A stretch of DNA of 64,000 nucleotides from an uncultured Tenacibaculum sp. (GCA_947497895.1 CANMIL010000001.1:372001-436000), one strand, 5' to 3'. Positions 1 through 55,601 are shown, counted from the first letter of the stretch. Notes: generated from the letters alone by a model not told the origin. Made by a program: numbers and translations.

Positions 1-212
1 GGATTTGTTGGATCAGCCAAAGTAACTAAATCGGCCATAAAAGGAATTTGTAAGGTAGTGCTCTCCAACATCATTCCTGGATGCCAATCGAACTTTTCAC
101 TTTTATCTAAAAATATTCCATTAAGCCCTTCAATAGGTGCTGCTAAACACGCTAGTCCTAGATTAAAAGGTCCTACTCCAATTGCTATAAAATCTGCTAT
201 ATTCTCTGCCAT
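1..212 (-). CDS. L-lysine N6-monooxygenase (siderophore biosynthesis), N-terminal part, truncated by window edge
   Basis: Translated by hand: [82 protein letters not shown]-binding motif and FDWHPGMM typical of lysine/ornithine N-hydroxylases. Not in the ORF track. Confidence 0.9.
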
Positions 213-218
213 TTTAGT

Positions 219-1724
219 CTAATTATTAGTTTTATATTGTTCTCCTTTTTGTCTGATCATATTTAAGATCTCAAAAAGATTTTCTTCTGTATTATTCGGA
301 TTCAATAGCGTGAATTTTAAATAGATGTTACCATCTAATTTGGTGCTAGCAACAGAGGTTTTCCCTTGTTTGTACAAAGTATTTTTAATGTACATGTTTA
401 CTCTATCGTGCACCTTGTTTTCTCGAACTCCTAAGGCTTTATATCGAAACACTACTGTGCTTAACTCAGGCTCATGAGCCACTTCAAAATGAACGTCATC
501 CTTAATTTTGTTGTAAACTGAAGTTGCTAAATGATGAACTCTTTCTAAATACTTTGCAATTGTTCCTTTACCTAATGTTTTTAGAGTAAACCAAACCTTA
601 AGTGCATCAAATCTTCTCGTTGTTTGAATAGATTTTTCAATTAGATTAGGTCTTTCTACATCTTTATCTTCAATAGGATTCAAATAATCCGCGTAATATG
701 ATACATATTGAAAATGTTTCTTATCCTTGGCTAAATAGGCACTACAGCAAACTGGCTGAAACATGGTTTTATGGAAATCCACAGTAATAGAATCAACCGA
801 ACTAATTTTTTCGAAATAATTCTTGTGTGTATCTGTTAAAACATAACATCCACCATAAGCTCCGTCGGCATGTAACCACATTTTATAATCTTTCGCAACA
901 CTCGAAATCGTTTCCAGCGGATCAAAACTACCGTAATCTGTAGTTCCTAAAGTAGCTACAACTGCCACCGGAATATTACCTTCTTGCTTTACTTTTTCAA
1001 TGGCTAAAACCAATTCATTCGGATCCATTCGCATTCTACTATCCGTTTTGACTGGAATAACGGCATCATACCCCATACCTAATAAAGCAGCGTTCTTCTT
1101 GATACTAAAATGAGCTTTGTCTGAACAGAATATTCTGAACTTACTAACTTCATCAAACCAACCATTTTGCTTAATATTCACTCCATAATGTTCAAAAGCA
1201 TAATGGTCTCTCGCCATCAATAATGCCATAAAGTTCGACTGGGTACCTCCACTAGTAAAAACTCCATCCGAGGTTTCTGGAAATTTAAACTCGTTACAAA
1301 TCCATCGAATTACTGCTTGTTCTATAAATGTTGCTGAAGTACTTTGATCCCAAGTTTCAATAGCTGTATTTATCGTAGTCGCAATAATTTCAGCAGCCAT
1401 TGCTGGTAACACTACAGGGCAATTTAAATGGGCTACATAATTAGGATTATGAAAAGCAATTGTATTCTTAATATATAAGTTGTTCAGATATTCTAAAGCA
1501 TTCTCAAAAGAAAGTGTGCTTACTCCATCAATTTGGGCATCAATCTTATGTTGATTTATCTCCTCCAAATTGTCACCTGCATAAAAATCTTTTTTACTAA
1601 AGAACTGTTTTAAGGTCTCTAAAATTAAATTTGTTTGTTTTTCTAAGTCTTTGAAAGACTCTCCGTGTAGTAAGTTAGTTTCTAGCGAAGAATCGACAAG
1701 TACCGGGAATTCGTCTAAGATCAT
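219..1724 (-). CDS. PLP-dependent decarboxylase (lysine / diaminobutyrate decarboxylase type) of a siderophore locus
   Basis: Group II decarboxylase motifs (FTSGGTQSN, HADGAYGG, DFHKTMFQP); adjacent to lysine N-monooxygenase. Confidence 0.88.
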   Translation of the reverse strand: MILDEFPVLVDSSLETNLLHGESFKDLEKQTNLILETLKQFFSKKDFYAGDNLEEINQHKIDAQIDGVSTLSFENALEYLNNLYIKNTIAFHNPNYVAHLNCPVVLPAMAAEIIATTINTAIETWDQSTSATFIEQAVIRWICNEFKFPETSDGVFTSGGTQSNFMALLMARDHYAFEHYGVNIKQNGWFDEVSKFRIFCSDKAHFSIKKNAALLGMGYDAVIPVKTDSRMRMDPNELVLAIEKVKQEGNIPVAVVATLGTTDYGSFDPLETISSVAKDYKMWLHADGAYGGCYVLTDTHKNYFEKISSVDSITVDFHKTMFQPVCCSAYLAKDKKHFQYVSYYADYLNPIEDKDVERPNLIEKSIQTTRRFDALKVWFTLKTLGKGTIAKYLERVHHLATSVYNKIKDDVHFEVAHEPELSTVVFRYKALGVRENKVHDRVNMYIKNTLYKQGKTSVASTKLDGNIYLKFTLLNPNNTEENLFEILNMIRQKGEQYKTNN

Positions 1725-1861
1725 TTATTTTTATTTAGTCTTAATAGTTGCAGCAAAATTAAGACGTAAAAAAATGTTAAAATGACGCAAATGTGAGAAA
1801 AAATGACGCGATATTACACGCTAATAATACCAATAAAAAAATTGAACATTTAGGTATAAAA

Positions 1862-1899
1862 ACAAACAAAGTCAGAGATATATCTCCAACTTTGTTTGT
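1862..1899 (-). terminator. Intrinsic terminator-like hairpin downstream of the photolyase gene
   Basis: acaaacaaagt / actttgtttgt 11-bp perfect stem with inner gagata/tatctc stem. Confidence 0.6.
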
Positions 1900-1918
1900 G
1901 TTATTATTTCTGAGAAAA

Positions 1919-3205
1919 TTATGCCTTCTTGTAGGCTTCAAGGGCTCTTAATCTAGCAATTTTATGATCTACAATTGGTTCTGGATAGGTCAATTCATTT
2001 AAATCTTCTACCCATTTTCTCGTATACTTCAATTCTTTATCGAACTTTTTTAACTGTTCTGTAGGATTAAAAATTCTAAAATAAGGTGCGGCATCGCATC
2101 CTGTTCCAGCCGCCCATTGCCAATTACCATTGTTCGATGCCAATTCATAATCTAACAGCTTTTCAGCAAAGTAAGCTTCTCCCCATCTCCAATCAATAAG
2201 TAAATGCTTACATAAAAAACTTGCTGTAATCATTCGTACACGATTGTGCATATAACCAGTTTCATTTAATTGACGCATTCCTGCATCAACAATCGGATAA
2301 CCAGTTTCACCTTTACACCATTTTTTAAACTCTTCTTCATTATTTCTCCAAGGAACAACATCATATTTTTCACGGAAGTTTCTGGTAACTACTTTTGGAA
2401 AATGAAATAGTATTTGCATAAAAAACTCGCGCCAAATAAGTTCACTTAAAAATATAGCGTTTGTTTTTAAAGCATGTTTTACCATTGTACGAATACTTAC
2501 TTGTCCAAATCTTAAATAAGGTGATAAATACGACGTTTGATCTAATGCAGGATAATCACGAACCTCTTCATAATTAAATAGCTTGTCAATTTTATATGGA
2601 ACTACTTTAATCGTGCTTTCTTCAAAACCTATTTCCTCCATTGAAGGAAAGTCAATATTATAGTTATAAAAGTTATTAGAATATTCACTTGTATCATTTT
2701 GAATCAAGTGTTCTTCTTCTTTAAATAGCTTCAACCATTGATTTTTAAAAGGTGTGTATACGGTATACGGGGTATTATCTTTTTTTAACACCTCTCCTTT
2801 TTCAAAAATTACTTGATCTTTAAATGTATTTGCAGGAATTTCATTCTTCTCAAAATGACCAATAACCTCAGCATCTCTTTTCAAAGCATAAGGTTCGTAA
2901 TCTCGATTAAAGAACAGCCCTTTACATGAATACTCTTCTAATAGGTCATTCCAAACCTTTAGCGGGTTTCCTGTTTTTACAGTTAAAGCGCTACCAAACT
3001 GTTTTAATTTGGTATCTATTTCTTGCAAGGTTTTATAAATGAACGTTACTCTTGCGTCGTCCTTAGGGAGTTTATCGAGTATTTCTTCGTCAAAAATAAA
3101 AACTGGAATGACTTCAAAACCAGATTTTAATGCATGAAATAAAGCGGTATTATCCTCTAAACGAAGATCTCTCCTAAACCAATAAAAAACAATATTATTT
3201 TTCAT
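1919..3205 (-). CDS. Deoxyribodipyrimidine photolyase / cryptochrome family
   Basis: MKNNIVFYWFRRDLRLEDNTALFHAL start, WREFFMQILFHFP, GNWQWAAGTGCDAAPYFRIFNP motifs. The track start at 3241 overlaps the neighbouring gene; ATG at 3205 is preferred. Confidence 0.93.
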   Translation of the reverse strand: MKNNIVFYWFRRDLRLEDNTALFHALKSGFEVIPVFIFDEEILDKLPKDDARVTFIYKTLQEIDTKLKQFGSALTVKTGNPLKVWNDLLEEYSCKGLFFNRDYEPYALKRDAEVIGHFEKNEIPANTFKDQVIFEKGEVLKKDNTPYTVYTPFKNQWLKLFKEEEHLIQNDTSEYSNNFYNYNIDFPSMEEIGFEESTIKVVPYKIDKLFNYEEVRDYPALDQTSYLSPYLRFGQVSIRTMVKHALKTNAIFLSELIWREFFMQILFHFPKVVTRNFREKYDVVPWRNNEEEFKKWCKGETGYPIVDAGMRQLNETGYMHNRVRMITASFLCKHLLIDWRWGEAYFAEKLLDYELASNNGNWQWAAGTGCDAAPYFRIFNPTEQLKKFDKELKYTRKWVEDLNELTYPEPIVDHKIARLRALEAYKKA

Positions 3206-3680
3206 TAAACATTTTTTCCAATGTGTTAAACCTATGCTCAAATATGTCTTGTAACTGTTTCTTTATAAAAACATTCTGAGCTATTGTTCCCAAAAAACCT
3301 AAAGGTATTTTATACGAAATTTTATCTTCCATAAGTGTTTTACCTCCAGGCGTTTCATAGAACCAATGCTCGTGATGCCACATATTATACGGCCCAAAGC
3401 GTTGTTCGTCAATAAAAAACTCACGCTCTTTTACATGTGTTATCTCGGTTACCCAATTTTGCTTTATTCCTGGTAAAATTCCTACTTTGTAGGTTATAAT
3501 TTGACCTGCATATGCTTTATGGTTTAATTCAGAAGTTATTTGAAACCCCATATGGGACGGGGTTATTCTCTGCAGATTTTCAGGTGAACTAAAAAAATCC
3601 CAGGCTTCTTCTAACGATACATTTAATACTTGCTTTGTATATAACGTATATATTCCTGAATGCTTTTTAAACTCAATCAT
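3195..3680 (-). CDS. SRPBCC-family ligand-binding protein
   Basis: ORF; EAWDFFSSPENLQRITPSHMGFQI is typical of photolyase-linked SRPBCC proteins. Confidence 0.75.
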   Translation of the reverse strand: MIEFKKHSGIYTLYTKQVLNVSLEEAWDFFSSPENLQRITPSHMGFQITSELNHKAYAGQIITYKVGILPGIKQNWVTEITHVKEREFFIDEQRFGPYNMWHHEHWFYETPGGKTLMEDKISYKIPLGFLGTIAQNVFIKKQLQDIFEHRFNTLEKMFNEK

Positions 3681-3681
3681 T

Positions 3682-4080
3682 TTATGATTTTTCTATTTTA
3701 TTCCAAATTTTATCCGAGTCTAATCTAAAACTACCAACATAGTTGAAGTTACACTCTGTTGGTTTAAGCAATGATAAAAAGTATCCTTTATCGTTTTGGT
3801 AAAGATGGTAAATTTCGCCAACAATAGGTTCGAATGTGAATTTCGCACTATATACTAATTCGTTGTATGTAAATTTACTATACAACGTTTCAAACTCCTT
3901 TTTCAGTTCGTCAAAAGAAGCTTTTATTTGCTTATTTGCTAATGTTATATTTTGCTTCTTCCAACTTACAGAGTTTGGTAAATCTATTTTCGGTGCTGTG
4001 AAATTTGTTGCATACGGTTTTAAGTAAGCGTCATATTCTTTCGTCTCCTCGTTGTAAACAACATTATCAGGTCTTTTCAT
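3682..4080 (-). CDS. DUF2452-like protein
   Basis: MKRPDNVVYNEETKEYDAYLKPY...; family recognised by eye; within photolyase cluster. Confidence 0.65.
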   Translation of the reverse strand: MKRPDNVVYNEETKEYDAYLKPYATNFTAPKIDLPNSVSWKKQNITLANKQIKASFDELKKEFETLYSKFTYNELVYSAKFTFEPIVGEIYHLYQNDKGYFLSLLKPTECNFNYVGSFRLDSDKIWNKIEKS

Positions 4081-4395
4081 GTATTTATTCTTTTCTTGTT
4101 CTTTATAAGTTATATGTAATTTATCAGAACCATTAAGTTAGTAATGAATTATTTGATATGATTGAACCTAAGTATCAATATTAAAATTAGATATTTAATA
4201 TAACGAAAACGCTTAAATATTACTATACTTTTATCTCTTAGAGGGATACCACAGATTTCGTGCGAGTTACTATGACTAATAGCGACTATATCTACTAACA
4301 AAAAAGAGAATGTCTTAGTAAGAAACTTCTTAACACAGACAATGACAATTCCAAAAAAATGAAATCTGCAGCACCACCTCTCTCAAGAGTTCTTC

Positions 4396-4938
4396 TTATA
4401 TATATTTCGTTATTTTTTTACTATTCGGTTTCGTCATTGAATAGAAATAATCCAATAATCTACCATTCTCATCAACTAAATACTTCTGAAAATTCCATTT
4501 TACTGTTGAATTAGAATTTCCATTTAATCCTTTTTGCGTTAACCACTTGTACAATTCATGCTGACCTTCACCTTTAACATCTACCTTTTCGGTTATTAAA
4601 AAAGTAACTCCATAATTTCTCTCACAAAAACTTTCAATTTCCGTAGCTGTCCCCGGTTCTTGTCCTCCAAATTGATTGCACGGAACTCCAATGATCATTA
4701 AATTATCCTTGTGAGCATTGTATAACTCCTGAAGACCTTTGTACTGCCCCGTAAATCCGCATTTTGAGGCTACATTTACAAATAGTAACTTCTTTCCTTT
4801 ATAGTCGTGTAAACTAATTGGATTATTATTAATATCATTAATTTCTATATCGTATAAAGAGGTTTTAGGCTCTAATGTTTGTGCTTTTATTGATGATCCG
4901 AACAGTGTCATAAATACTAATATTTTTAATAGTTTCAC
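4396..4938 (-). CDS. Glutathione peroxidase family protein
   Basis: NVASKCGFTGQYKGLQELY, CNQFGGQEPG, VKWNFQKYLVDENG. Confidence 0.93.
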   Translation of the reverse strand: MKLLKILVFMTLFGSSIKAQTLEPKTSLYDIEINDINNNPISLHDYKGKKLLFVNVASKCGFTGQYKGLQELYNAHKDNLMIIGVPCNQFGGQEPGTATEIESFCERNYGVTFLITEKVDVKGEGQHELYKWLTQKGLNGNSNSTVKWNFQKYLVDENGRLLDYFYSMTKPNSKKITKYI

Positions 4939-4953
4939 AGTTTTAATTTTTGG

Positions 4954-5484
4954 TTATTCGATTGTTATTTTTTTTATTTTTAATTCAAATTTTTCATCTT
5001 TCTTATTTCCTATCAAAATAGCGATTTCTTCAATGCTTTTTGAATCAAAATTTCCCTTATTCAATCTATATCCTCTAAAAGAAGGATAAAAATCATTTAA
5101 GTTTAGTTCTATTCTTTGCTCTTTATTTGTTGTGTTAAATGACTGTACATACCAAAACCTCATGTATTGTTTAGATTTAATACGAAACTGGTACTTTTTA
5201 CCATCTCCATTTACCCACAAAACAATCTTTTTATGACTTTCATCGATCGCAATATTAGTTTTTAATCGAGTCATAGCGAAGCCTCCATTATTTTCAGTAA
5301 ACACATTTCCTGAAAACACTCCATATCCGTTAGAATTTGAAAGCATTGCAGAAGTAGAAATACCTCCCATGACATCATCATTGGTTTGTCTCCATTTCTG
5401 GGAACTATTCTTTGAGAAATCATATATGATTATTTCAGAAACTGTCATAAATAAAACGGTTATAAGGATAAAAAATCGCATCAT
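4954..5484 (-). CDS. CIA30-family protein
   Basis: WRQTNDDVMGGIST, GFAMTRLK, RFWYVQSFNT typical of CIA30 domain. Confidence 0.85.
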   Translation of the reverse strand: MMRFFILITVLFMTVSEIIIYDFSKNSSQKWRQTNDDVMGGISTSAMLSNSNGYGVFSGNVFTENNGGFAMTRLKTNIAIDESHKKIVLWVNGDGKKYQFRIKSKQYMRFWYVQSFNTTNKEQRIELNLNDFYPSFRGYRLNKGNFDSKSIEEIAILIGNKKDEKFELKIKKITIE

Positions 5485-5489
5485 ATAGC

Positions 5490-6164
5490 TTATAATTTGA
5501 CGCTTACAATTCCGGCATCCATAGGTATTACTTGGCCTGAAATGGATTTTGAATGATCCGCTAGCAAATATTCAGCTAATGTAGCTACTTCCTTAGGATC
5601 TAAGTATTGTTTTAAAGGGTGTCTATCTCTCATACTTTCTTGTTGCTTTTCATTTCTCAGCAATCTCGCAGCTAAAGGAGTGTCTGTAACGGTTGGAGCA
5701 ATTACATTGAATCTTATTTTCGTTGCGTATTCTGCTGCTAACGATTTCGCTAGACCTTCAATAGCCGCCTTGCTGACCGCAATGCTCGAATGGAAAGGCA
5801 TTCCTAAGTGCGTAGCAACCGTACTAAACAAAACTACACTTCCTTTTGATTGAGATAATTGCTTCTCGTAATGTTTTATGACTTTAATAGCACCCAGTAC
5901 ATTAATATTAAAATCGTTTTGGAAATCTTCAATTTTAAGCCTACTCAAGGATTTTAAATTAATACTACCAGGACAGTATACCAATCCTTGAAGATCTTCA
6001 ATATCGGGTAAATCATCTTCTAAAACATCTAAGCTATGATGCGTTATGTTATCGATATCATTTGTCCCTCTGCTAAAGGTAATAACGTTATGTGTATCCT
6101 TAAGCTGGTTTGCTATGGATGCTCCAATTCCCTTACTTCCCCCTACTATCAAAATGCTTTTCAT
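5490..6164 (-). CDS. SDR-family oxidoreductase
   Basis: GGSKGIG cofactor motif, YCPG, SSIAVSKAAIEGL, C-terminal GQVIPMDAG. Confidence 0.9.
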   Translation of the reverse strand: MKSILIVGGSKGIGASIANQLKDTHNVITFSRGTNDIDNITHHSLDVLEDDLPDIEDLQGLVYCPGSINLKSLSRLKIEDFQNDFNINVLGAIKVIKHYEKQLSQSKGSVVLFSTVATHLGMPFHSSIAVSKAAIEGLAKSLAAEYATKIRFNVIAPTVTDTPLAARLLRNEKQQESMRDRHPLKQYLDPKEVATLAEYLLADHSKSISGQVIPMDAGIVSVKL

Positions 6165-6193
6165 CTATTCTTTTATTTTTTTGAGTGTAACTG

Positions 6194-6895
6194 TTAACTT
6201 TTCAAATAGTTCTGTAACTCAACAATTTTCTCTTGCTTATTAAAAGCTCCTCCGTAAAAACAGGTAACGGTTGATGAAGAGTCGTCTTTAACTCCTCTTG
6301 AAGAAACACATAAATGCTTTGCGTCAATAATTACAGCGACATCTTCAGTTTCAAGAATGTTTTGCAAATCAATCGCTATTTGATTCGTTAAACGCTCCTG
6401 TACCTGAGGTCTTTTCGCATAATACTGAACAATTCTATTCAACTTTGAAAGTCCTATCACTTTCCCCGATGAGATATAAGCCACATGTGCCTTTCCGATA
6501 ATCGGTACAAAATGGTGTTCACAGTTTGAATAAAACTGAATGTCCTTTTCAATCAACATTTGATTGTATTGATATTTGTTATCAAACAATGCTATTTTCG
6601 GCTTATTTTCAGGATTCAATCCTGAAAAGATCTCATCAATATACATCTTTGCTACACGCTGAGGAGTTCCTTTTAACGAATCATCAGTTAAATCTAGCCC
6701 CATTACGTCCATTATCTGTGAAAATAAATCAGCTATTTTTTCTTTTTTATCCTCATCTGATATATCGAAAGCATCTGCTTTCATTGGGGTTTCTATTCCT
6801 GTAAATAAATGATCTTCTCCTATTTCGTCTACTGAAAGACCATTTAGCGAATTAGACGTTAAAAGGGTATTCAACAAAGTTTCTTGGTGTTTCAT
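6194..6895 (-). CDS. folE: GTP cyclohydrolase I
   Basis: SNCEHHFVPIIGKAHVAYIS, GLSKLNRIV, RPQVQERLTNQIA. Confidence 0.95.
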   Translation of the reverse strand: MKHQETLLNTLLTSNSLNGLSVDEIGEDHLFTGIETPMKADAFDISDEDKKEKIADLFSQIMDVMGLDLTDDSLKGTPQRVAKMYIDEIFSGLNPENKPKIALFDNKYQYNQMLIEKDIQFYSNCEHHFVPIIGKAHVAYISSGKVIGLSKLNRIVQYYAKRPQVQERLTNQIAIDLQNILETEDVAVIIDAKHLCVSSRGVKDDSSSTVTCFYGGAFNKQEKIVELQNYLKS

Positions 6896-7274
6896 ATAGT
6901 TTAATTTTTAATTCCAAATGTTCTGGAATTTCTTTTTTAATTACTTGGTAAATCACAATGGCAATATTTTCAACAGTTGGATTTACGTCTTTAAAATGTT
7001 CTACTTCTAAATTCAAATTTTTATGATCAAAAGGCTCTAAAACCTTTTCTTTAATAATATCGGACAATATTTTTGTATCGATCACATATCCTGTTTCTTC
7101 ATCTACATATCCGATAACCGTGACTTCTAATTCATAATTATGGCCATGATAATGTGGATTGTTACATTTTCCGAAAACTTCCTTATTCTTCTCATCAGTC
7201 CAATTTTTGTTGTGTAACCGGTGGGCAGCATTAAAATGCTCTTTTCTTGTTATTCCCAGTTTAAATTCACTCAT
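6852..7274 (-). CDS. 6-pyruvoyl-tetrahydropterin synthase / 6-carboxytetrahydropterin synthase family
   Basis: FNAAHRL, GKCNNPHYHGHNYELEVTV, DHKNLN. Confidence 0.92.
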   Translation of the reverse strand: MSEFKLGITRKEHFNAAHRLHNKNWTDEKNKEVFGKCNNPHYHGHNYELEVTVIGYVDEETGYVIDTKILSDIIKEKVLEPFDHKNLNLEVEHFKDVNPTVENIAIVIYQVIKKEIPEHLELKIKLYETPRNFVEYPFNV

Positions 7275-7559
7275 TTATCTCTTAGCTATCTTATTATTGT
7301 TTATTGCTCTTTGTCTAGTACATTTGAATCTTCCCACTGAAAATTCTCGTTTTGCTTGATGCTTAGTACTTCTTCCTTGAACTCTCTTTCTCCAACGCTT
7401 AAAACTTGTTACTTTTAAATTCCGCCTCATCAACTGAATTACTTCTTTCTCACTAAGCCTGAATTGAAATTTAATAGCATCAAAAGTTGTTCTGTCTTCC
7501 CATGCCATTTCAATTATACGATCTATTTCAATAGCCGTCAATGAACTCAAATTCTTCAT
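7275..7559 (-). CDS. TIGR03643-type small protein of photolyase clusters
   Basis: IDRIIEMAWEDRTTFDAIKFQFRLSEKEVIQLMRRNLKVTSFKRWRKRVQGRSTKH. Confidence 0.8.
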   Translation of the reverse strand: MKNLSSLTAIEIDRIIEMAWEDRTTFDAIKFQFRLSEKEVIQLMRRNLKVTSFKRWRKRVQGRSTKHQAKREFSVGRFKCTRQRAINNNKIAKR

Positions 7560-7959
7560 TCGATAAATTTTTTAAATCAATCATTTTGTCAAAAAACTTC
7601 TTGTTGAAAGTATTTCCGTGCTTTTCCATCTGTACAAAGCTTCCATCTGAGTGTATGCTAAAATACGTCCCATTAAAAATGACTAACTTGTAATATGGAA
7701 TCGCCCATGAGAATCGCTTTAATTGATTCGTTATATGCACAATAATTCCTTTGGGTCGAAGTTCTATATTCGCGTAATTTAAATCAGAAACCTTGTTTAC
7801 AAAGCCCTGAAAGTTGTGACTCACATTGTTTATTATTAATCTACCACTTCCAATTCCTCCTAAACGTAATTTGTCTAGGAAGGAAAATGACTTTCCAATT
7901 AAATGATTAATTTCACGTAGGTCTGATTTTTCCGTATATGTTGTATTAAAAATAATCAT
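7528..7959 (-). CDS. Hypothetical protein in photolyase operon
   Basis: 143-aa ORF with 3-nt spacing to the next gene, same strand; no family recognised. Confidence 0.7.
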   Translation of the reverse strand: MIIFNTTYTEKSDLREINHLIGKSFSFLDKLRLGGIGSGRLIINNVSHNFQGFVNKVSDLNYANIELRPKGIIVHITNQLKRFSWAIPYYKLVIFNGTYFSIHSDGSFVQMEKHGNTFNKKFFDKMIDLKNLSNEEFEFIDGY

Positions 7960-49787: not shown

Positions 49788-50636
49788 ATGACAATCAAAG
49801 AGCTTAAGTCCTTATTCTCAGAAGAACTTTCTTCTACATATCCTAAAACCGAAATCGACACCTTCTTCTATATAGTAGTTGAAGAGTATTTAAATTTCCA
49901 AAGAATTGATACGGTACTTAACTCTCATGAAAAATTAAAAAAAGAAGAAGAAACCTCAATCTTATCTGTATTAGATAGATTAAAGCAAGAAGAGCCGATA
50001 CAATATATAATAGGTAAAACTGAATTTTACGGACTTCCATTTAAAGTAAACACTAACACATTAATACCAAGACCAGAAACTGAGGAATTAGTTGATTGGA
50101 TTATTAAAGAAAATAAGAATCGTGATAAGGAGCTAAAAATTCTAGATATTGGCACTGGGTCTGGGTGTATCCCTATAAGTTTAAAAGCAAATCTTCCGAA
50201 ATCCAAAGTTTCTACAATTGATGTTTCTAATGATGCCATTGAAGTGGCAAAACAAAACGCAATAATTAATAAGGTAGAAATTAATTTTTTAAATATCGAT
50301 ATCTTAGATAGTGAAACACTTCCAGAGACCTATGATATAATTGTATCTAATCCTCCTTATGTAAGAGAGCTAGAAAAAGAAGAAATAAAAAACAATGTTT
50401 TAAACAACGAACCTCACTTAGCTTTGTTCGTTGAAAATGATAATCCACTTATCTTCTACAACAAAATATCGAAACTTGCTTCGAAACATTTACGCAAAGA
50501 CGGAGCATTGTTTTTTGAAATTAACCAATATCTAGGAACAGAAACTTCACAGCTTGTAAAAAATAATGGTTTTCAAACCGTTCATCTAAGAAAAGACTTA
50601 TTTGGTAATGACCGTATGATTATGGCAAACCTATAA
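49788..50636 (+). CDS. prmC: Peptide chain release factor N5-glutamine methyltransferase
   Basis: PIQYIIGKTEFYGLPFKVN, LIPRPETEELVDWI, DIGTGSGCIPISL, VSNPPYV. Confidence 0.95.
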   Translation: MTIKELKSLFSEELSSTYPKTEIDTFFYIVVEEYLNFQRIDTVLNSHEKLKKEEETSILSVLDRLKQEEPIQYIIGKTEFYGLPFKVNTNTLIPRPETEELVDWIIKENKNRDKELKILDIGTGSGCIPISLKANLPKSKVSTIDVSNDAIEVAKQNAIINKVEINFLNIDILDSETLPETYDIIVSNPPYVRELEKEEIKNNVLNNEPHLALFVENDNPLIFYNKISKLASKHLRKDGALFFEINQYLGTETSQLVKNNGFQTVHLRKDLFGNDRMIMANL

Positions 50637-50892: not shown

Positions 50893-51222
50893 ATGGAAAA
50901 AGTAGATCTTACTATGCTTATAGAGAAGTCACAAGCAGAATCTGGACTTGTTTTTGACTCTGAGGGCCATGTACTTGACTCTCACAACGTAACCAACGAG
51001 AATAATGTCTCCGCCATGGTTAGCGTAATGGCAACTATGTCTGACGAGCTTCTTCAAGATACTATGGGTGCAAAAGACTCAAAGCTTATCTCTTTAGCCT
51101 CGGAAAGCGGTTTCATTATTATCAACAAAATAAATAAAGATCAATCTATTTGTTTAATGACAAAAGATCTTTCAAAAGCTAATTTCATGAAGCTTACGCT
51201 TCGTAAAATAGTTTCAAAATAA
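50893..51222 (+). CDS. Roadblock/LC7-like small protein
   Basis: ESGLVFDSEGHVLDSHN...AMVSVMATMSDELLQD...SLASESGFIIINKI matches the Roadblock/MglB-like beta-alpha pattern by eye. Confidence 0.65.
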   Translation: MEKVDLTMLIEKSQAESGLVFDSEGHVLDSHNVTNENNVSAMVSVMATMSDELLQDTMGAKDSKLISLASESGFIIINKINKDQSICLMTKDLSKANFMKLTLRKIVSK

Positions 51223-51258
51223 TAGCAAAACATTTTTATTAATTAAATCCTTTTTATC

Positions 51259-51630
51259 ATGAAAGAAATTTTAAACGACCTTATTACGAATTTAAAAGGA
51301 ATGGACGGATTTGTTGCCGTATCAATTACAGACGTAGCCTCTGGAGAAGCGTATGACTCGTATACTGCTGACAAGAAATTCGATCCGAATTTAGCTTCTG
51401 CTTATAATCTAGAGGTAGTAAAAGCAAAACTAAAAGCTATTGAAGCTTTAGGATTAAAAGAAGAAATTCAAGATATAACAATTACGTTATCTTCTCAAAT
51501 ACATATTATTAACATTGCTCCAAGTGGAGACTACTTCATCTACTTAGCTGTAGATTCTGGTAAGGCAAATATGGGAATTACCAAAGCTATGCTAAATAAG
51601 CATAAAGCTAAATTAAATGAAGCACTATAA
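51259..51630 (+). CDS. Roadblock/LC7-like small protein
   Basis: LITNLKGMDGFVAVSITDVASGEAYDSY...HIINIAPSGDYFIYLAVDSGKANMGITKAML. Confidence 0.65.
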   Translation: MKEILNDLITNLKGMDGFVAVSITDVASGEAYDSYTADKKFDPNLASAYNLEVVKAKLKAIEALGLKEEIQDITITLSSQIHIINIAPSGDYFIYLAVDSGKANMGITKAMLNKHKAKLNEAL

Positions 51631-51640
51631 AATATAACAC

Positions 51641-51838
51641 ATGAAAGACACCAATCACTTACCTATTGATAAATCGTTAAAGAAACATTTGAACGGTCAA
51701 CTGAAATCTTTTAGAAAATATAGATTTTCAGAAGGAGTTGTTACAGTTACAGCAACTGGCAAGAAAAAGAAGGCTTTTCTTGACATATTATTCGATGAAC
51801 ATGATAGTTTAGGTGATATGATGAAAGCTTTATTCTAA
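51641..51838 (+). CDS. Hypothetical 65-aa protein in Roadblock/PAS cluster
   Basis: ORF spaced 10 nt after the previous gene; basic, no family recognised. Confidence 0.6.
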   Translation: MKDTNHLPIDKSLKKHLNGQLKSFRKYRFSEGVVTVTATGKKKKAFLDILFDEHDSLGDMMKALF

Positions 51839-52020
51839 AAAAAAGGAATACAGATTATAAAATATAAAAAAAAGAAAAACTTAATTCTTTCAATTATAAA
51901 ACTTGGGTAAAAAATATTGCTTAAGTATATGATGGCGAAGATACTTTCTGATAAAAAAGGTTTTCCCCTTGATAACATACTATACAAACAATGTTTAAAC
52001 CCCTTTAATCAATTAAAATT

Positions 52021-52563
52021 ATGAGTAACAACAGACCAACCCCTACTAACGAAGAAATTGCTTGGGACAAAACGAAAGTTATTAAAAGTAAAACTGATGA
52101 AGTAGGTACTATAACTTATGTTAATAATGTTTTCATAGAAGCTAGTGAATACACTAAAGATGAGCTTATCGGTCAACCGCATAACATTTTAAGACACCCA
52201 GACATGCCTAAGGTTATTTTTAAAACCTTATGGGATCACTTAAAAGCTGGAAACAACTTTAACGCAGTAGTTAAAAATCTTACAAAAACAGGTAAATATT
52301 ATTGGATTGTTACCAACTTCGATATTTTCAAGGATCCTTCTGGTACACCTACAGCTTTTTTGGGAGCTAGAAGTTTTGTTCCGGATGCTGTAGTAGATGT
52401 GATTGCTCCTCTATATGCGAAATTATTAGAACTTGAAGCTAGCGGTGGTATTGATGCCAGTGAAAAACACCTGAACGAATTTGTTGCAGACAAAGGTGGA
52501 GATTATGTTTCTTTCATTAAACAAATAATATCAGATAATGGAGTTGACACAAGCTCTTGGTAG
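52021..52563 (+). CDS. Free-standing Aer-like PAS domain protein
   Basis: TYVNNVFIEASEYTKDELIGQPHNILRHPDMPKVIFKTLWDHLKAGNNFNAVVKNLTKTGKYYWIVTNF; no transmembrane or MCP domain. Confidence 0.9.
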   Translation: MSNNRPTPTNEEIAWDKTKVIKSKTDEVGTITYVNNVFIEASEYTKDELIGQPHNILRHPDMPKVIFKTLWDHLKAGNNFNAVVKNLTKTGKYYWIVTNFDIFKDPSGTPTAFLGARSFVPDAVVDVIAPLYAKLLELEASGGIDASEKHLNEFVADKGGDYVSFIKQIISDNGVDTSSW

Positions 52564-52603
52564 AAAGCATTAAAATTCGTTAAATAAAAAATTTTTAAAT
52601 ATT

Positions 52604-52978
52604 ATGAACCTAGAAGACATAAAAAAATATTCGCAAACAATAAGTAATCAATTAAGCGGACTAATCTCCATTACTGTTATTTCAGCTGAAGATGGAATGG
52701 TGGTAGATTACTTCAGTAGCAATGAAGATGTAGATAACCAGTTAGCTGCTTCGTTCCAAGTTGAGGTATTAAGACAGATTACCAGAGGGTTGAACTATAT
52801 TGATGATTTAGAAAATAAAGAAATCCAAAACTTAATGGTTACTTTAGAGGACCAAACACATTTTGCTTTCTTATCTGATTCTAAAGATTTAATTGTTCAC
52901 ATTATTGCAAACAATAAAGAAACAAACGTTGGAATGGTTAACTTATTCCACAAAAAGAACAAGCAATTATTAGATTAA
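52604..52978 (+). CDS. Roadblock/LC7-like small protein
   Basis: SNQLSGLISITVISAEDGMVVDYFSSNEDVDNQLAASFQVEVLRQI...HIIANNKETNVGMVNLF; resembles the 51259 product. Confidence 0.65.
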   Translation: MNLEDIKKYSQTISNQLSGLISITVISAEDGMVVDYFSSNEDVDNQLAASFQVEVLRQITRGLNYIDDLENKEIQNLMVTLEDQTHFAFLSDSKDLIVHIIANNKETNVGMVNLFHKKNKQLLD

Positions 52979-53018
52979 ACTATTCAGTTTTATTTCTAAT
53001 AAATAATATATGATTATG

Positions 53019-53047
53019 AAACCTCCTAATATTTATATGGAGGTTTT
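53019..53047 (+). terminator. Terminator-like hairpin after third Roadblock-like gene
   Basis: aaacctcc / ggaggttt stem followed by TTTT. Confidence 0.6.
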
Positions 53048-53106
53048 ATCTTTATGTAAAAAATGATTAAGATAGCTCCTTAATCATTTGAACTACCTAT
53101 TAAAAA

Positions 53107-53139
53107 CAAAAAGCAATGATAAATTATCATTGCTTTTTG
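53107..53139. terminator. Bidirectional terminator between the convergent Roadblock and PAS genes
   Basis: caaaaagcaatgataa / ttatcattgctttttg near-perfect palindrome with A/T tracts. Confidence 0.8.
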
Positions 53140-53161
53140 CTTGTTATTTTAATACATCATC

Positions 53162-53776
53162 CTATTCTAAACCAAATACCCATTTAAAAAAGGAACCTTT
53201 CTTTTTTTCACGAGTTCCTCCCTCTGTTCCTACCATATCACTATCAAGTACTAAGTCTTCAATATACTTATTGTAATCAGTATCTTTAGAATCAAAGAAA
53301 CCTTTGAAAAACTTTTCAGACGCCTCTAAACCCGATTCTTTTTCTATCTCTACTAATTTTTTATAAAAAGGAATCATTTCATCTACTGCCTTTCTAGGTG
53401 CAGGCTTTCGTATACCTTTATATCCTGTAATATTTCCTTTGCTATCTTCCTTCACCACAAAATCCGTAATAACCCAATAGTATCTTCCGGTTTTAGCTAA
53501 GTTTTTAACCACTGCAATAATATTCTGTTTCGATTGAATGCGATTCCACATCATTTGAAAAATAACACGCGGCATATCCGGGTGTCTCACAATATTGTGA
53601 CCAGCACCTACCAATTCAAACTCCTCATAACCACTCGACTCAACAAATGCTTCGTTACAATATTCAATTACCCCCCGTTTATCTGTTATGCTGATAAGTA
53701 CATCATCTTTATCTAAAACGATTTCCCTATCTACTGGTTTTGGCGGAGTAATTCTTGGTTTTCTTTCTAAACTCAT
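53162..53776 (-). CDS. Free-standing Aer-like PAS domain protein (paralogue of 52021..52563)
   Basis: EYCNEAFVESSGYEEFELVGAGHNIVRHPDMPRVIFQMMWNRIQSKQNIIAVVKNLAKTGRYYWVITDF; same C-terminal helical tail. Confidence 0.9.
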   Translation of the reverse strand: MSLERKPRITPPKPVDREIVLDKDDVLISITDKRGVIEYCNEAFVESSGYEEFELVGAGHNIVRHPDMPRVIFQMMWNRIQSKQNIIAVVKNLAKTGRYYWVITDFVVKEDSKGNITGYKGIRKPAPRKAVDEMIPFYKKLVEIEKESGLEASEKFFKGFFDSKDTDYNKYIEDLVLDSDMVGTEGGTREKKKGSFFKWVFGLE

Positions 53777-54110: not shown

Positions 54111-55601
54111 TCAAATTTTGTCTTGTTCTAAAAATGTAAAAATCTGCTTCATCTTTTCTATTAATTGGTATATTTCTTCTTTAGTATAACTAGCAAACCC
54201 CATTCTAATAGCATTGTGTTTTTTGTTTGCCATATCATAACGTTTCCAATCTCCAATTGAAAAGTTATGTTTTTCTCCTTCTCTTTTTACTTTTTCCCAA
54301 GTATACCTATTATTTAACTTTACCCAAATAGCCATTCCTCCTTTAGGAATATCAAAAGAAAAATAATTTGAAAGCTCACTTGAAAGCAAACTACAGAACA
54401 AATTTCTTCGTTCTTCATAAATTTTTAAAATTTTTCTAATATGCCTATCTAGATCTCCTGACTTAATGAATTCAGCAAAAGTTAATTCAAGTATGGCATC
54501 TCCTTGTCTATCAACATAACCTCTATATTTCGACGCTTCTCTTACAAAAGCCTCCGAACCGATTAAATATCCTATTCTAAACACTGGAGCTACTGTTTTA
54601 CATACTGATCCTATATATACCACATTCTTTCTTTCATCATGACTAGCTAAAGGCAAAATAGGCGCATGATTGTAGTTAAAATCGTAATCATAATCGTCCT
54701 CAATAATAGCGAAACGATATCTTCGAGCTAAATTCAATAAATGAATCCTTCTTTCGGCGGATAAAGTAACTGTGGTAGGGTGATGATGATGTGAGGTAAT
54801 ATAAACGGCTTTTATTGCTGATGTTTTACATATTTTTTCAATTTGGGAAGTAACAATTCCCTCAGAATCCACCTCTACTCTTTTTAACATTGCACGAGTT
54901 TGCATAAACGTGATATCCGCTGAAGAGTAGTTTGTCATTCCAACAACTATTGTATCACTTTCCTTCAATAATAGTTGAGCACTCAGCCAAATCCCCATTT
55001 GACTTCCTCTTGTTATCAATAGGTTATCCTTTGTGATTTTTAAACCTCTTGAAGAATTTAAGTACTCTACCAATACTTCTCTTAATCTTTCGTTTCCATA
55101 CGTAGAGCCATATGAAATATCTTTAAAAATATTTTTTCTCGCCGATATACGTCGATAAATCCTTCCCAGTTCAACTGTTGGAGCCAACCTTGTATCTGAA
55201 ACTCCATCATTTATTTTAATCCATCCCTCATCATTAATACTTTTCTTTTCTGTTAATAAAGGGTCTTTATAAAAAGTAAAATCAGCCCCAACGATATCAT
55301 TATTTTCTTCCATTGAACTGATAAATTCTTGTTGATTCAAAATAGGGAGATCTTCTTTCACAAAAGTTCCTTTCTTTGGTACACTTATCACCCACCCTTG
55401 CTCTTCTAATTCTTCATAGCACGCCACTACAGTTTTTCTATGCACATTCAACAAGCTACTTAACGACCTGGTACCTAAAAGCTTTGTTCCACTTGGCAAT
55501 CTTCCTTCGCTTATATGCACAATAAACTGATTTGCCAATTGTAAATACAAGGGTTGATTCGTATTCTTTTTAAGTGTAAAACTAGTTTTATACGGAAACA
55601 T
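54111..55601 (-). CDS. MocR-family regulator (GntR HTH plus class I aminotransferase domain)
   Basis: QPLYLQLANQFIVHISEGRLPSGTKLLGTRSLSSLLNVHRKTVVACYEELEEQGWV; TSHHHHPTTVTLSAERR; IIEDDYDYDFNY. Confidence 0.94.
   Translation of the reverse strand: MFPYKTSFTLKKNTNQPLYLQLANQFIVHISEGRLPSGTKLLGTRSLSSLLNVHRKTVVACYEELEEQGWVISVPKKGTFVKEDLPILNQQEFISSMEENNDIVGADFTFYKDPLLTEKKSINDEGWIKINDGVSDTRLAPTVELGRIYRRISARKNIFKDISYGSTYGNERLREVLVEYLNSSRGLKITKDNLLITRGSQMGIWLSAQLLLKESDTIVVGMTNYSSADITFMQTRAMLKRVEVDSEGIVTSQIEKICKTSAIKAVYITSHHHHPTTVTLSAERRIHLLNLARRYRFAIIEDDYDYDFNYNHAPILPLASHDERKNVVYIGSVCKTVAPVFRIGYLIGSEAFVREASKYRGYVDRQGDAILELTFAEFIKSGDLDRHIRKILKIYEERRNLFCSLLSSELSNYFSFDIPKGGMAIWVKLNNRYTWEKVKREGEKHNFSIGDWKRYDMANKKHNAIRMGFASYTKEEIYQLIEKMKQIFTFLEQDKI

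Follow-up and report, generated by a model that had tools for sequence, protein, structure and literature searches.

What can Roadblock proteins do in a genome that seems to encode no small GTPase for them? In the current understanding, such proteins regulate small GTPases or serve as scaffolds for them. The question is raised by a locus at positions 50893-53776 of the window, by which we mean the whole 64,000-nt stretch analysed (G000:C1:372001-436000), from a Tenacibaculum-like genome. An earlier note on this DNA had placed six ORFs between prmC and a mocR gene, three of them Roadblock-like, and had proposed that two PAS proteins act through them on a GTPase from another part of the genome. 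The six ORFs were all confirmed at the stated positions:

49788-50636, + strand: prmC, one flank of the six-gene cluster
50893-51222, + strand: R1, predicted Roadblock/LC7 protein, 109 aa
51259-51630, + strand: R2, predicted Roadblock-fold protein from a family without Pfam match, 123 aa
51641-51838, + strand: S65, small protein, 65 aa, third conserved partner
52021-52563, + strand: PAS1, free-standing Aer-like PAS protein, 180 aa, without aromatic tail
52604-52978, + strand: R3, diverged R2 paralogue (E ~1e-8 to R2), 124 aa
53162-53776, - strand: PAS2, free-standing Aer-like PAS protein, 204 aa, with tail KKKGSFFKWVFGLE
54111-55601, - strand: mocR-type gene, the other flank

Intergenic gaps of 36 bp (R1-R2), 10 bp (R2-S65) and 40 bp (PAS1-R3) arrange R1-R2-S65 and PAS1-R3 as in two small operons, and the six ORFs are real genes, since homologues occur in conserved order in other genera. 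Inspection of the window neighbours bears out the observation that no MglA-type or other GTPase, MCP, kinase or response regulator adjoins the cluster. The nearest locus found in a scan of relatives' contigs is that of Tenacibaculum sp. MAR_2009_124. A phage or defence origin of the cluster was considered and rejected, PHROGs and PADLOC having returned nothing relevant.

The Roadblock pair and its distribution

The AlphaFold (AF2) models of R1 and R2, built from alignments of each window protein with the fetched loci, reach a pLDDT of 91 and 94, respectively, and both follow the order a-b-b-a-b-b-b-a. This succession of helix-strand-strand-helix-strand-strand-strand-helix matches the account of the Roadblock fold given for Ragulator (PMC5680233). 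In Foldseek comparisons with the PDB, the top matches of both models are Roadblock/LC7 proteins, MglB, MglC and Asgard Roadblocks, at E ~1e-7. The Pfam model Robl_LC7 is matched by 17 of the 18 R1-family members at E<=1 (best 3e-10), the window R1 itself scoring 15.9 bits, below the curated cut-off of 23 bits; a weak match of the window R1 to LAMTOR5 (2.9e-4) is likewise below cut-off. R2 and R3 have no meaningful Pfam match. As a sequence search of the PDB with R2 also returned nothing meaningful, the R2 fold rests on AlphaFold and Foldseek. Structure prediction had been named beforehand as a check on the Roadblock assignment, and on these models we predict with high confidence that R1 and R2 adopt the Roadblock/LC7 fold. 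R3 joins them through its homology with R2 (E 1.7e-8 and 2.7e-8, 20-21% identity): it is a diverged R2 paralogue, whose Roadblock membership is by homology only. R3 adjoins R2 only in the window and in one further locus (L012). In these same two loci, the very diverged R3 and the tail-less PAS1 form what looks like a lineage-specific second pair.

The genome-contig scan identified 229 R2 relatives, of which 80 were kept. These belong to Tenacibaculum, Flavobacterium, Aquimarina, Aestuariibaculum, Capnocytophaga and one further Flavobacteriaceae bacterium. In most of the 80 loci the gene immediately preceding R2 is R1, and the pair is found in the first four of these genera; in the Capnocytophaga loci inspected, the gene upstream of R2 resembles folB, not R1 (gene name by inspection). 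An ileS-type gene (also named by inspection) adjoins R1-R2 both in T. soleae (L020) and in one class of Flavobacterium loci (L044 type), so that gene order is conserved across genera. Across broader samples, R2 is present in 5 of 151 genomes of the family (mostly one per genus), 20 of 398 of the order and 25 of 396 of the phylum. The R1-R2 pair, usually with an S65-family gene, is conserved across several Flavobacteriaceae genera, albeit patchily. Synteny outside this strain was the second check set beforehand, and the R1-R2 order is indeed kept. Of 20 papers in which 'roadblock' and Flavobacterium both appear, none describes such a module in its title or listed abstract.

Two variations of the locus were seen in Flavobacterium. 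In many genomes there are two R1-R2 loci, oppositely oriented and about 12 kb from each other, and each has a small tailed gene of a separate type (for instance L037 with L071, and L047 with L073). The F. davisii group (L081 7100-10363; L262; L263) has R2 amplified into several copies (four in L081), with a PAS gene and a transposase-like ORF nearby.

PAS proteins, small partners and C-terminal tails

Both PAS proteins match PAS_3 (PF08447), at 1.8e-14 for PAS1 and 1.8e-10 for PAS2, and in the PDB both come closest to Aer, the aerotaxis receptor of E. coli (8dik; E 9e-25 and 2.9e-23). Each carries a single PAS domain and no HAMP or MCP domain, in keeping with the description of both as lacking an output domain. 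The Aer residues that contact FAD include H53, R57, M69, W70, N85 and R115 (PMC9668731). H53, R57, W70, N85 and R115 (Aer numbering) are identical in PAS1 and PAS2 and kept by most other PAS-family members examined; the M69 position holds Leu in PAS1 and Met in PAS2. With these contacts kept, PAS1 and PAS2 likely bind FAD. The redox-type input proposed for them is also supported, as both are nearest to Aer and retain the FAD contacts. Two more PAS copies are present in the same genome, on contig C2.

S65 is a third conserved partner, a role that the earlier note had not given it. Its homologues adjoin R1-R2 in Tenacibaculum, where they lie downstream of R2, and in Flavobacterium and Aestuariibaculum, where they are divergent and upstream of R1. 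The family is characterized by an N-terminal motif like 'L..DLN.KL.KFR.FR..NG', followed by a Lys-rich linker and an aromatic C-terminus, as in MKTVDELRFDLNVKLEKFRRFRIENG...KKGFFKKIFS. The window S65, placed in the family by profile search, has the motif 'L..L..KL..FR.YR..G' and a Lys-rich aromatic tail region, and its tail is diverged. Members of the same slot in L014, L021, L022 and L265 are S65-like by position and motif only. The Flavobacterium S65-type gene is under purifying selection and encodes a real protein, given a median dN/dS of 0.14 (25 copies) and a motif and tail that are nearly invariant across these copies.

Other small ORFs occur near some of these loci. In T. adriaticum (L018, roughly 1-7700), many ORFs of 50-80 aa precede R1-R2, at least one of which resembles a double-glycine leader peptide (MKKQILNLGKALNRSEQKTINGG...), and a similar single ORF is found near the R1-R2 pair of genome G220 (L265 6171-6347).

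As read from the sequences, an aromatic C-terminal tail is common to S65-family and PAS proteins, a feature that is new here and absent from the first reading. Examples of PAS tails are EEERGFFSRLFGR, KKKGSFFKRFFGIE and EKRKSFFGRLFVQ, and the S65-type proteins of Flavobacterium have KKGFFKKIFS as their last residues. The motif F[FL].[KRW][ILVF][FL] is found in the last 16 residues of 11/25 PAS proteins, 8/14 S65-family proteins and 0/593 background proteins, counts that describe rather than test, since the motif was defined after the tails had been seen. The window's own PAS1 and S65 are without it. Tenacibaculum has another form of the tail: in the L018 genome the PAS protein ends in WFFFSDYQE and the S-protein in FFFSEFNN, and in G220 the PAS tail is WFFVTEYEMS and that of the S-slot protein FVTTEYYESD. 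The PAS and S65 tails resemble the membrane-targeting tail of E. coli MinD, which ends in EEKKGFLKRLFGG; the C-terminal amphipathic helix of MinD binds the membrane (PMC8155659). Scores of helical moment and of a lipid discriminant were rejected as evidence on the tails, because the tail of E. coli MinD itself falls within the bulk of the background; by helical moment, the PAS and S65 tails do not stand out either.

The simplest reading is that the PAS and S65 tails would lead to a common destination, either the membrane or a partner. One tentative alternative is that the Roadblock dimer is itself what the tail docks onto, as a peptide, PAS and S65-type proteins competing for one site. The receiver-domain protein RomR offers a precedent, its C-terminal helix, in which a Trp is essential, having nM affinity for MglC, a Roadblock dimer (PMC12719032). 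Docking would suit both the specific, similar tail forms shared by S65-type and PAS proteins of the same genome (L018 genome, G220) and the situation in Capnocytophaga, which keeps R2 and a tail-bearing PAS, with R1 not seen beside R2. However, tail-bearing PAS proteins exist in genomes where R2 was not found (G117, G128, G129 and G148, of which G117, G129 and G148 are outside Flavobacterium and Tenacibaculum), and this fits membrane targeting better. The roles that we infer for tails and docking are given here as candidates.

Association of PAS with Roadblock genes, and the search for a GTPase

A PAS gene adjoins the R1-R2 module in four Tenacibaculum loci (the window, L012, L013 and L015); in the F. 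davisii group it sits near R2 copies or between them (L262, L263). As overlap of PAS and R2 at family level, with one genome per genus, was too sparse, co-occurrence was analysed within genera. A full-length PAS relative is present in 17/18 R2-positive versus 2/6 R2-negative Flavobacterium genomes, and in 10/11 versus 1/4 Tenacibaculum genomes. For both genera together this gives 27/29 versus 3/10 (stratified exact p = 3e-4, rising to 5e-4 when the window and its sister are left out, neither corrected for phylogeny), the R2-negative group being small (n=10 genomes). Adjacency and genome-wide co-occurrence in two genera thus sustain the link between PAS and Roadblock proteins drawn in the earlier note, to which we give moderate confidence.

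Deeper in the Bacteroidota, R2 has other neighbours. Genome G576 (L196) combines a separate R2, a fusion of a receiver domain (REC) with R2, an R1-like Robl_LC7 protein (1.5e-14), a 233-aa protein and a Ras-like GTPase; in G819 (L200), R1, a 225-aa protein, a GTPase and R2 lie together; in G911 (L208) a GTPase, a protoglobin (PF11563, 2.6e-30) and R2; and in G655 (L197) R2 adjoins a REC protein. With these REC and protoglobin neighbours and fusions, the R2 family appears repeatedly beside free-standing sensory domains.

Operons of this kind have further features. Between the Roadblock and GTPase genes, several deep Bacteroidota encode a protein of the 233-aa type (L196 10955-11656; L239 5943-6647; L240 1469-2170; L241 6197-6901; L246 7064-7768), which in L196, the locus checked, has no Pfam match; it ends in a basic amphipathic tail, e.g. 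LKRLFTKIMSI, and is perhaps another membrane tether. Small proteins that appear hemerythrin-like or CZB-like by eye are found in Roadblock-GTPase operons of L239 (7210-7680), L244 (7629-8042) and L246 (7841-8167), and would be further free-standing sensory domains.

It is conceivable, if rather unlikely, that the PAS proteins have no functional tie to the Roadblock module, the two being chance neighbours in a few strains and co-occurring because both track certain clades. Most Flavobacterium R1-R2 loci have no nearby PAS gene, and each of the two occurs without the other, R2 lacking such a PAS in G036, G116, G145, G287 and others. Against this stand the co-occurrence within two genera, the adjacency in Tenacibaculum and the F. 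davisii group, the tails common to PAS and S65 proteins and the linkage of R2 to other free-standing sensory domains in distant relatives.

The GTPase expected elsewhere in the genome was sought by six-frame searches. No Ras/MglA-type GTPase was found in this genome by PF08477, PF00025, a single relative or an 11-sequence GTPase profile; the profile found none in 24 R2-positive Flavobacteriaceae genomes (this one and 23 others), and no convincing match to a Ras-like GTPase was obtained in 151 genomes of the family. Full-length matches to the profile were limited to G576, G819, G911 and G858. The positive controls were found at E < 1e-60, and the best matches in the Tenacibaculum-like genome are either P-loop fragments or long GTPases of the translation or multi-domain type. 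The idea that R1 and R2 are MglB-like GAPs acting on a distant GTPase, suggested by MglB being among their nearest folds and by deep Bacteroidota members in operons with Ras-like GTPases, is already largely refuted by these searches, and the earlier note's claim of a GTPase in another place is not supported. In the R2 tree, in which R3 and the REC-R2 fusion form long branches, Flavobacteriaceae sequences group together; the nearest outsiders are those of G819 and G576, one from within a GTPase operon and the other from next to one. Since the deep forks of this tree are weak, loss of the GTPase by descent in the Flavobacteriaceae lineage is likely, not proven.

A candidate scaffold without a GTPase, and known systems

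The reading that we favor, with a probability of about 0.5, is that of a GTPase-less Roadblock signalling scaffold, tethered by S65 and receiving a redox input from the Aer-like PAS proteins. It builds on computed folds, synteny, FAD-pocket conservation, common tails, co-occurrence and the lack of a detectable GTPase; the fold and synteny claims are strong. R1 and R2 would form Roadblock dimers, most likely an R1:R2 heterodimer, which the S65-family protein would bind through its conserved N-terminal 'FR..R' helix; the basic aromatic C-terminus of this protein would keep the dimers at a shared docking site or at the inner membrane. The Aer-like PAS proteins would bind FAD, sense the respiratory redox state and reach the site of S65 through the same kind of tail, and their redox state may then alter the assembly or the partners of the scaffold. 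No output partner of the module was found in this analysis, and any output is one that we infer. A more specific version, which we regard as doubtful, is that a Ras-type Roadblock cassette no longer uses its GTPase and has become a membrane-held docking platform, switched by FAD-binding Aer-like PAS proteins that share a C-terminal address tag with the small tether.

The module is real and conserved, and is a case of orphan Roadblock proteins. In 2014, a survey found 328 MglB homologues to lack a coupled GTPase gene, and none of these had been characterised (PMC4316618). The present module stands out by the genome-wide lack of a detectable GTPase and by a tail common with redox PAS proteins. 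It is a compact, conserved case with no Ras-like GTPase detected genome-wide, with candidate inputs (the redox PAS proteins) and with a candidate tether. If the scaffold reading is true, it would show a role of Roadblock domains without a GTPase, and Flavobacteria would gain an energy-sensing route without chemoreceptor arrays.

Several known systems share parts of this design. The MglB/MglA system of Myxococcus xanthus, with MglC and RomR, has Roadblock-fold proteins that R1 and R2 match at Foldseek E ~1e-7 (MglB and MglC); both have two Roadblock paralogues, and distant relatives of the module have an R1-GTPase operon and a receiver-R2 fusion. Unlike this system, the module has no detected MglA-type GTPase in its genome, including within four genes of R1/R2, and combines free-standing Aer-like PAS proteins as candidate input with a tiny tailed partner. 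Orphan MglB proteins (Wuichet and Sogaard-Andersen 2014, PMC4316618; Snodgrassella mglB-3, PMC11112851) are also encoded by Roadblock genes uncoupled from a small GTPase gene, but Snodgrassella still carries MglA, whereas no Ras-like GTPase was found in the 24 R2-positive Flavobacteriaceae genomes. Streptomyces conservons (CvnA-D) similarly group a Roadblock protein with small partners and a sensor; they comprise a histidine kinase, a Roadblock protein, CvnC and a GTPase, whereas our cluster has neither histidine kinase nor GTPase. E. coli Aer shares with PAS1 and PAS2 the PAS domain and the five FAD-pocket residues, but the two proteins have in place of the HAMP and MCP domains only a short extension at the C-terminus, which in PAS2 bears an aromatic tail. 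Finally, Ragulator (LAMTOR1-5), a pentamer whose lipid-anchored scaffold binds two Roadblock heterodimers, offers a parallel in concept only, that of Roadblock heterodimers held by a small protein anchored in the membrane (PMC5680233); the module, in contrast, has no recognised p18 homologue and no Rag GTPase, and consists of one Roadblock pair only.
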